From a virus, in IMG/VR virus record IMGVR_UViG_3300046373_000027, positions 1 to 25,450 of that record: 25,450 nt of DNA. One strand, given 5' to 3'. Shown one piece after another: positions 10,437 to 25,358 of this stretch (position 1 is its first letter; each line of letters starts with the position of its first letter). The notes below the pieces were generated by a model. The model was not told where the DNA came from and searched no databases. It saw only the letters and a program-made list of their open reading frames with translations. The position numbers and the translations under genes are program-made.

Positions 10437-10450
10437 TCTCATTAATGAGA
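10437..10450. repeat. 14-bp palindrome TCTCATTAATGAGA, copy 1
   Basis: Perfect palindrome. It contains the TAA stop of the 305-residue gene and lies just upstream of the helicase promoter. Four perfect copies and one near copy exist in the window. Confidence 0.85.
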
Positions 10451-16040: not shown

Positions 16041-16187
16041 TTATTCTCCTTGTATTCTCATTAATGAGATATTACCACGAACGACTGCGCAGATACTCTT
16101 GCTATCCTTTTCTCGTACAAGGTAAGGGACGCACAGCGAAAGGTAGTCGATTGACGGCCGGTTTCCTACTTGTGGGAACGTATTCAT
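16041..16187 (-). CDS. Small hypothetical protein (48 aa)
   Basis: A short frame, MNTFPQVGNRPSIDYLSLCV...ISLMRIQGE, with a strong AAGGAG site before the ATG at 16187 and a consensus promoter 30 bases further up, so it is the first gene of a transcript. Its stop ends one base before the TTG of the next gene and its last codons hold both the 14-bp palindrome and the next ribosome binding site. It may be a real protein or serve as a translated leader. No family is recognised. Confidence 0.6.
   Translation of the reverse strand: MNTFPQVGNRPSIDYLSLCVPYLVREKDSKSICAVVRGNISLMRIQGE
16056..16069. repeat. 14-bp palindrome TCTCATTAATGAGA, copy 2
   Basis: Perfect copy inside the 3' end of the 48-residue gene (read as ...ISLMR...), 17 bases upstream of the TTG start of the 96-residue gene. 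Confidence 0.85.
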
Positions 16188-18704: not shown

Positions 18705-19127
18705 TTATTTGTGCTCTGCACAGAAATTGTGCCTAGCAATCTTACGACACTTCATTTTATTTGCCCACTTGGGCTTATTACCTGAGTGAAAGAACTTCTC
18801 ATTAATGAGAATTTTATTTGAATTTCGTACATCTGTCAACATCTCTTGCAACTGGTACGTCATCGGCATCATTGGCTTCTTGCCTACCCAAGCAAACTGA
18901 TTCCGTTCCTTGATAATACCACAAGCTGATTTGCCTGTGGCAAGCATTCTGTTCTCTATGACATCTAGTACAGCCCTGCGTCCCGCTAATGGTTCTGCAC
19001 GAGCCTCGTAGTATATCGCATTGGCTATGCATCGATCATCAGCTAGGGTCTTGGGCACTCTTGGATTCGCTACTGGACTACTCACTACTGCTAAGATAAG
19101 TGCAAGAGCTACAACACACTTCCTCAA
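18705..19127 (-). CDS. Exported cell-wall hydrolase, SleB-like
   Basis: A 140-residue protein with an N-terminal signal or anchor (CVVALALILAVVSSPVA) and the pattern AIYYEARAEPLAGRRAVLDVIENR, matching the SleB/Hydrolase_2 family, in which the Glu of Y-E-A-R (Glu41) is the catalytic acid. CGIIKERNQFAWVG is the second family block. It should cleave peptidoglycan in the periplasm, as an endolysin or a transglycosylase acting at lysis or entry. The start is TTG at 19127, overlapping the TGA of the upstream membrane peptide, without its own clear ribosome binding site, so translation is coupled. A palindrome copy lies inside the frame. Residues 1-22 look like signal-anchor-release or a cleavable signal. 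Confidence 0.85.
   Translation of the reverse strand: MRKCVVALALILAVVSSPVANPRVPKTLADDRCIANAIYYEARAEPLAGRRAVLDVIENRMLATGKSACGIIKERNQFAWVGKKPMMPMTYQLQEMLTDVRNSNKILINEKFFHSGNKPKWANKMKCRKIARHNFCAEHK
18797..18810. repeat. 14-bp palindrome TCTCATTAATGAGA, copy 3
   Basis: Perfect copy, extending to 16 bp (TTCTCATTAATGAGAA), inside the hydrolase coding sequence, where it is read in a different frame from copy 2 (KILINEK). Confidence 0.85.
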
Positions 19128-24215: not shown

Positions 24216-24244
24216 ATTATGATGACCTCGTTGGCACACGTCAA
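24216..24244 (-). promoter_or_regulatory. Sigma70-like promoter for the ligase module
   Basis: Minus-strand TTGACG (24239-24244), 17-base spacer, CATAAT (24216-24221). The start would be near 24209, leaving a 22-base leader for the 54-residue gene. Confidence 0.8.
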
Positions 24245-24282
24245 GAGTTATTTTCAAATTAATATGGCTCGATTACAGGCTC

Positions 24283-24345
24283 TACAAGGCGTTCAAACAG
24301 GCTCAGGCTAGTCTGCTATCAACCCGCCTCCGTTATCGCCTTGTA
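24283..24345. repeat. 9-bp inverted repeat in the gap before the ligase module
   Basis: TACAAGGCG (24283-24291) and CGCCTTGTA (24337-24345) are a perfect inverted pair with a 45-base gap that contains AGGCT repeats. It lies between the palindrome (24366) and the promoter (24216-24244), in a 198-base stretch without a gene. Without a U-tract it is not a simple terminator. Confidence 0.5.
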
Positions 24346-24365
24346 TACCCCTCTACGGCCTCCCA

Positions 24366-24379
24366 TCTCATTAATGAGA
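24366..24379. repeat. 14-bp palindrome TCTCATTAATGAGA, copy 4
   Basis: Perfect copy six bases after the stop of the HNH/AP2 gene and about 120 bp upstream of the next promoter. Confidence 0.85.
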
Positions 24380-24385
24380 ATGTAA

Positions 24386-24970
24386 TCAATCCTCGATATT
24401 GATCTGGTAGTTCATGAGCGCATCGTATGCTCGTGGATCAAGCACATAGCGATACTCTTCGGCACGTTGTTTGATAAATACCTCCTTCGCTTTCTTGTAC
24501 ACCTGGAAGGCTTCCTCTGGCGTGTCGAAGTATCCCAAGGTAGTCACTCTGCTATTACCCCTCGACATCTGCGCCCTGTACTTACTATTAGGTTTATGGA
24601 AAGTCACGCCAACAGGGAGTGCGCCACGGCTTGCACCAGAGTTGATCAGAAGCATGTTGAGTGGCTTTGGCAAGAACAGGCAAGTATCCTCACAGTAGTG
24701 ACTGTTGCCACGTATTAACAAGTCTTTATCCAGTTCACCACCCTCCTTGAACCCTACCTGAGAGTTGCACCAACCAGCAAACAACTGAAACTCCAAGAAT
24801 TCGTCACTCACAGAGCAGCATGTGTACGTCGGGTGAGATTCGTGAAACTTTGCATCATAGCAACGTAATAGTAACCCACGCCACAGGACGTATTCCTTTG
24901 TGGGCCTTCCGCCTACAGTTGCTTTGTAGACACCTCTAGTGTAGTTGCCAACTCCTCTTTTCCTTGCCAT
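24386..24970 (-). CDS. HNH-like/AP2 homing-type endonuclease
   Basis: A 194-residue protein related over its length to the C-terminal part of the gene at 8104-8856: LWRGLLLRCYDAKFHESHPTYTCCS, then ELDKDLLIRGNSHYCEDTC, PKPLNMLLINSG, and the AP2-like block PVGVTFHKPNSKYRAQMSR with LGYFDTPEEAFQVYKKAKE. It lacks that gene's N-terminal beta domain and instead has a short basic start. The ATG at 24970 has a perfect AGGAGG site; a frame extending to 25039 is not supported. It is the first gene downstream of the long structured leader, which is unusual for a selfish endonuclease. Confidence 0.82.
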   Translation of the reverse strand: MARKRGVGNYTRGVYKATVGGRPTKEYVLWRGLLLRCYDAKFHESHPTYTCCSVSDEFLEFQLFAGWCNSQVGFKEGGELDKDLLIRGNSHYCEDTCLFLPKPLNMLLINSGASRGALPVGVTFHKPNSKYRAQMSRGNSRVTTLGYFDTPEEAFQVYKKAKEVFIKQRAEEYRYVLDPRAYDALMNYQINIED

Positions 24971-25055
24971 TCGACCTCCTGTTGTTTTGTTTAAGTTTAT
25001 TTCGACTTTGCTCTTGCACTGGTTCAAAAACTCTGGCACCCTAAAGACTTATAAT

Positions 25056-25154
25056 AGACAAGACATACTTAGTTACTACTAATTTGTAATACTTAGTAGA
25101 GGGGTTTACACCTTATTTCATGTAACTAAAGATATAAACTAGTTGGTCTTGTCT
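25056..25154 (-). repeat. Nested inverted repeats in the leader of the first minus-strand gene
   Basis: AGACAAGAC (25056-25064) pairs with GTCTTGTCT (25146-25154); inside it TTAGTTAC (25069-25076) pairs with GTAACTAA (25122-25129); inside that CTACTAA (25076-25082) pairs with TTAGTAG (25093-25099). The transcript from the 25203 promoter would carry this as a long branched hairpin between its start and the endonuclease gene. Confidence 0.6.
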
Positions 25155-25202
25155 TTAATATAACTCTTAAGCTATATCTAAGCTTGCTTAAGCATGTCTA
25201 GT

Positions 25203-25231
25203 ATTATGGATTAGTTATTCCCACCTGTCAA
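25203..25231 (-). promoter_or_regulatory. Sigma70-like promoter driving the minus-strand genes
   Basis: Minus-strand TTGACA (25226-25231), 17-base spacer, CATAAT (25203-25208). Start near 25196 gives an unusually long leader of about 226 bases before the ATG at 24970. Confidence 0.83.
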
Positions 25232-25270
25232 GCCCTACGATACAATTAGTTCATATGCATGTCACATTGT

Positions 25271-25303
25271 TGTAGGCATACGACTACAGCCTGTGTAGGC
25301 ATA
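25271..25303. repeat. Direct repeat TGTAGGCATA between divergent promoters
   Basis: Two exact 10-base copies at 25271-25280 and 25294-25303, 23 bp apart. ACATTGT (25264-25270) and ACAATGT (25311-25317) flank them as an inverted pair. The position between the two outward promoters suits an operator. Confidence 0.6.
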
Positions 25304-25329: not shown

Positions 25330-25358
25330 TTGACTTCATGCGTCATAAGCCTCATAAT
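25330..25358 (+). promoter_or_regulatory. Sigma70-like promoter for the rightward gene
   Basis: TTGACT (25330-25335), 17-base spacer, CATAAT (25353-25358). Start near 25365, 56 bases before the ATG at 25421. Confidence 0.75.

Follow-up and report, generated by a model that had tools for sequence, protein, structure and literature searches.

The DNA analysed here, referred to as the window, comes from an incomplete virus genome and is a contig of 25,450 bases (IMGVR_UViG_3300046373_000027). Its minus strand carries a replication module encoding a PolA-type polymerase, a helicase, a primase/helicase, a DNA ligase and an RNA ligase, with an HNH endonuclease gene at the head (Table 1); the AP2-like part of the endonuclease was judged from its sequence. 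A sequence-only reading of this DNA had placed a promoter at 25203, followed by about 226 untranslated bases and a perfect AGGAGG site. All of these elements are present, and AGGAGG lies at the 3' end of the leader, 4 nt ahead of the ATG at 24970. On the plus strand, a gene preceded by a divergent promoter starts at around 25405 and runs off the contig. Judging from their motifs, the promoters at 25231 (minus) and 25330 (plus) form a two-way control region. Between them, in the region 25261-25303, the exact direct repeat TGTAGGCATA occurs at 25271-25280 and 25294-25303. Beside this repeat, the minus strand carries ACAACAATGTGAC, which recurs in the divergent region of L003, one of the relatives retrieved with the RNA ligase.

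Table 1. Coordinates of the features in the window and of copies of the Pseudomonas leader RNA at other loci
Feature	Position	Strand	Basis or remark
Divergent promoter TTGACT-17-CATAAT	25330..25358	+	ahead of plus-strand gene
Sigma70-type promoter TTGACA-17-CATAAT	25203..25231	-	consensus scan, 11/12 bases; faces replication operon
226-nt untranslated leader of HNH gene and replication operon	24971..25196	-	start at ~25196 inferred from promoter
Most AT-rich 150 nt of window	25041..25190	.	GC 0.28 vs 0.49; possible unwinding element
Folded core with nested perfect 9-, 8- and 7-bp helices	25056..25154	-	shuffles and fold z-scores
9-bp helix	25154-25146/25064-25056	-	perfect pairing
8-bp helix	25129-25122/25076-25069	-	perfect pairing
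7-bp helix	25099-25093/25082-25076	-	perfect pairing
HNH endonuclease gene, first downstream of leader; AP2-like C-terminal part	24386..24970	-	PHROG 953, E 1e-62
Further noncoding stretch with strong folding, immediately downstream of HNH gene	24255..24385	-	z -3.68, 0/200 shuffles; second lowest scan window
Second minus promoter TTGACG-17-CATAAT	24216..24244	-	ahead of next small gene
Pseudomonas leader RNA copies	L112 4608-4867, L114 5045-5277, L115 5398-5658
Pseudomonas leader RNA copies	L122 406-663, L125 2498-2778, L126 1198-1462

The closest named relatives, as judged from the primase, are the Pseudomonas phages KoPa-4 and phiK7A1 and the Limnohabitans phage DC31, at about 50% identity each, and metagenomic relatives reach 73-83% identity on the primase or polymerase. 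A paper on Pakpunavirus Adele places the phage group in the Vandenendeviridae. The arrangement of divergent genes, a noncoding gap and the replication operon was found in G004, G007, G008, G011, G015, DC31, PseuGes_254, KoPa-4, phiK7A1, XD2, KIL2 and others, with a gap of roughly 130-590 bases, and was kept in every relative in which the strand switch was located. G004, DC31, KIL2, KoPa-4, XD2 and JG004 likewise have a TTGACA promoter facing the operon at this position. The DNA ligase query returned no relatives, a small operon gene used as query returned G003/G004 again and no others, and the RNA-ligase relatives L002/L003 have a short divergent gap with no leader. A palindrome, TCTCA-N4-TGAGA (mostly TTCTCA-N4-TGAGAA), occurs in the window at 10437-10450, 16056-16069, 18797-18810 and 24366-24379, ten times in G003, three times each in L025 and L026, and at L003 5413 and L002 5438. 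In the window and G003, its frequency exceeds expectation about 100-fold, and it is missing from DC31 and G007. Several copies precede a TTGAxx promoter by 5-7 or 16-21 bases, a placement resembling that of a regulator binding site; the SrpA sites of phage K5 were rejected as a match, as their sequence differs.

Our folding analyses revealed that the core of the leader contains all of the nested 9-, 8- and 7-bp pairs that had been claimed, with base 25076 common to the 8-bp and 7-bp helices. A lone 9-bp helix is common by chance (333 of 2000 shuffles); the nested set occurred in none of 2000 dinucleotide shuffles. The stretch 25200-25040 folds with a z-score of -2.94, and one of 200 shuffles folds as well, while the longer span 25200-24971 folds less distinctively (z -2.16; -1.75 for the full leader in another computation). 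When both strands were scanned, minus-strand 25051-25210 ranked third among 634 scan windows (z -3.97), and the opposite strand at the leader folds less well (z -2.64). In the minimum-energy fold, the 9-bp helix is kept and the 8-bp helix is displaced by an 11-bp hairpin (25139-25129/25114-25104). Because of this predicted displacement, it is possible that the leader takes two alternative conformations or forms a pseudoknot between a loop and downstream sequence. The repeated CTTAAGC words fared less well: GCTTAAG does occur three times at the leader and seven times over both strands of the window, but this is a weak signal, as 6 of 100 shuffles reach seven. BoxA-like TCTTTA words in the leader, seen by eye, were discarded as too weak.

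As a sequence, the leader appears to be an orphan among the collections searched, as no homologue was found in the viral contigs or phages, and the relatives retrieved carry other sequence in its place. In exact-pattern scans of the viral contigs, one leader motif gave 38 matches, approximately the chance number for 16 bases, and a two-arm pattern gave none. Rfam searches of the window and its relatives, at gathering and relaxed thresholds, returned nothing except tRNAs in the relatives. In G003/G004, the nearest relatives that have the region, an 11-bp tandem array stands in place of the window's leader sequence, and the leader there is not clearly better folded than chance (z -1.24).

At the same locus, Pseudomonas phages carry a conserved leader RNA of about 260 nt, which starts just after the TTGACA promoter, the expected transcript start lying just before its GGAGAGAYATGTC motif. 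The RNA was found in 154 records with a KIL2 query and in 184 records with an XD2 query, and its carriers include PaP1, JG004, K8, PAK_P4, KIL2, 16Q, M5.1, XD2 and KoPa-4. The covariation statistics were computed from an alignment of 11 diverse copies, in which RNAalifold predicted 45 pairs, 23 of them with compensatory double changes. An outer stem and a pseudoknot were put into the model by hand. The 5' part, including the pseudoknot, shows double changes in 17 of 27 pairs, with 88% of the cells paired; the same alignment had served to pick the helix of the pseudoknot and the register, so that the pseudoknot's share of the 17 is favoured. The 3' hairpin shows double changes in 10 of 21 pairs, with 96% paired. 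None of 500 shuffles reached the main covariation measures, and slid controls collapsed. In KIL3 and M5.1, second copies that precede another operon and had been left out of model building were recovered in both halves (103-114 bits for the 5' part, 49-50 bits for the 3' hairpin). Because the XD2 query hit 225 places in its 184 records, a second copy seems to be frequent but not universal at the sensitivity of this query. Some phage records carry hypothetical ORFs across the RNA, which matches no Rfam family. We regard this family, apparently uncatalogued and with strong covariation and a predicted pseudoknot, as the solid gain of the analysis.

Whether the window leader belongs to this family was addressed with two covariance models, R1 for the 3' hairpin and R2 for the 5' part. 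With filters off, neither found the leader: the best scores in the window were 8.9 bits (R1) and 5.0 bits (R2), both elsewhere, compared with 49-143 bits for the members. The leader was therefore rejected as a member on both models. It shares with the Pseudomonas RNA the locus, a TTGACA promoter just upstream, the replication operon downstream, and the character of a long, structured untranslated leader lying directly after the promoter in the divergent region. The Pseudomonas RNA, however, is about half G+C rather than AT-rich, is about 260 nt long, and has a conserved pseudoknot. In G007, which is more closely related to the window, R1 also matched a leader, that of a different operon, with 25.7 bits (E 4.6e-4 over 605 kb); R2 found no match there. 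On the basis of this one match, the family may reach beyond Pseudomonas phages. The G007 leader (L106 11557-12130, minus strand) has about 540 untranslated nucleotides and lies near a local GC-skew minimum.

The folded, AT-rich stretch is probably transcribed without coding for a protein, and the region probably serves for RNA-based control, as a replication origin, or for both. Our tentatively preferred reading, at somewhat less than even confidence, is that the replication operon has a cis-acting leader RNA here and that the same region is possibly an origin as well. The promoter sequence, the long untranslated stretch, the non-random fold and the conserved location are observed facts. The stretch 25196-24971 would be transcribed from the 25203 promoter and, as a structured nascent RNA, would act in cis. 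By analogy with the put RNA of phage HK022, its most likely target would be the transcribing polymerase, through processivity or antitermination, and the leader would supply the read-through that a long replication operon presumably needs. It would then be the positional counterpart of the Pseudomonas leader RNA, not a recognisable member of the family, and the same DNA may double as a replication origin. The suggestion that the element is an RNA regulator or antitermination site gains from its position and from the covarying Pseudomonas RNA, which occupies the same locus and heads a second operon in two genomes. Against it stand the lack of a homologue of the window leader in viral contigs or phages, the failure of the models, and the tandem array and unremarkable leader fold of G003/G004. 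A sequence scan also found no convincing examples, near the leader, of the downstream terminators that polymerase was supposed to pass.

The origin reading, in which AT-rich inverted-repeat DNA between divergent operons starts replication, perhaps primed by the 25203 transcript, with the pairing reflecting DNA sites for replication proteins, ranks close behind and is nearly as likely; both readings can hold together. The leader region has the lowest GC of the window, and the cumulative GC skew is lowest in the divergent region, or no more than about 420 nt from it, in DC31, G003 and G015 and, once detrended, in G007. An AT-rich noncoding locus at a GC-skew minimum is thereby assembled from the AT-richness of the window and the skew of four relatives, and it is confounded by divergent transcription, which alone also predicts such a minimum. 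Tandem arrays lie at the same place in G004 (12 x 11 bp) and PseuGes_254 (13-bp AT units), and the 11-bp array is the top-scoring array of the whole G003 genome, yet none was found at the window leader. Ori-Finder predicted the origin of PseuGes_254 in the divergent region (PMC11512268), although this published origin is a software prediction. Moreover, the locus is not AT-rich in KoPa-4, phiK7A1, XD2 or KIL2 (GC 0.47-0.49), and the window fold favours the transcribed strand. The array unit is TAGTATTCTTC, with about 12 copies in the G004 divergent region (L090 7671-7801). The G003 contig both starts and ends inside this array (G003:C1 1 and 87297; L091 1-135 and the end of L100), and the assembly therefore broke there.

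Another possibility would be that the leader is a long 5' untranslated region of the usual kind with no particular role, and that its pairing arose by chance in a short, AT-rich sequence. The modest z-scores of the full leader and the lack of demonstrable conservation in viral contigs and phages would suit this explanation, which we nevertheless consider unlikely in view of the nested helices missing from every shuffle and the third-best rank of the leader among the scan windows. The HNH gene offers a further alternative. In G004, it is absent at the matching place, and the counterpart of its downstream promoter there is TTGACT-17-CATAAT. Because a gene-free interval of about 340 bases separates the matching two minus promoters of G004, the HNH gene was, most simply, inserted in a noncoding region of the window. 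The leader might serve the HNH gene only, its flanking folds having arrived with the mobile gene or being remnants of a carrier intron. Two of the three best-folding windows border the gene exactly, and the leader and the stretch behind the gene share a 10-base perfect complement across it (ACCCCTCTAC/GTAGAGGGGT; 15 of 500 shuffles). However, a group I or II intron was rejected, given that Rfam covariance searches around the gene gave no match even at a relaxed threshold and that the two folded stretches, when joined in constructs, mostly fold independently. Nor do similar flanks accompany the related HNH genes of the loci retrieved, and we judge this explanation improbable.

A wider picture would be that elaborate leader RNAs acting in cis, a class absent from Rfam, occupy the head of the replication operon in this phage group and serve read-through or replication timing. 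The conserved pseudoknotted RNA would represent them in Pseudomonas phages, and the window would hold a fast-diverged version of that RNA or a replacement for it; we offer this as a rather doubtful generalization. PaP1/JG004-type phages are widely studied phages of Pseudomonas aeruginosa, and yet the conserved leader RNA with which their replication operon opens has apparently gone unannotated. Since this RNA starts just after consensus sigma70-type promoters and heads two operons in two of the genomes examined, a role in antitermination or timing is directly testable. If the locus is also a replication origin, early transcription would be coupled to replication; the only origin that we found reported for the phage group is software-predicted. 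That predicted origin, of vB_PseuGesM_254 (70,536-70,927), resembles the window locus in being divergent, intergenic, AT-rich, and located beside primase and DNA polymerase genes. It differs in having a tandem array of 13-bp AT units, which the window lacks, and in a partly inverted gene order.

Among known phage RNAs, sRNA1 and sRNA2 of PAK_P3, another lytic Pseudomonas phage, are non-coding RNAs identified by RNA-seq (PMC4933390). They are about 100 nt long, late, and located at other intergenic places, in contrast to the Pseudomonas leader RNA of about 260 nt. A parallel in placement is provided by HK022, whose put RNAs (putL and putR) sit after both early promoters (PMC9378689), just as the Pseudomonas RNA precedes two operons in KIL3 and in M5.1. 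A put RNA has about 70 nt and two stem-loops; the window leader has 226 nt and a different predicted fold. In HK022, the nascent RNA placed after the early promoters prevents termination in cis, and no phage protein is required.
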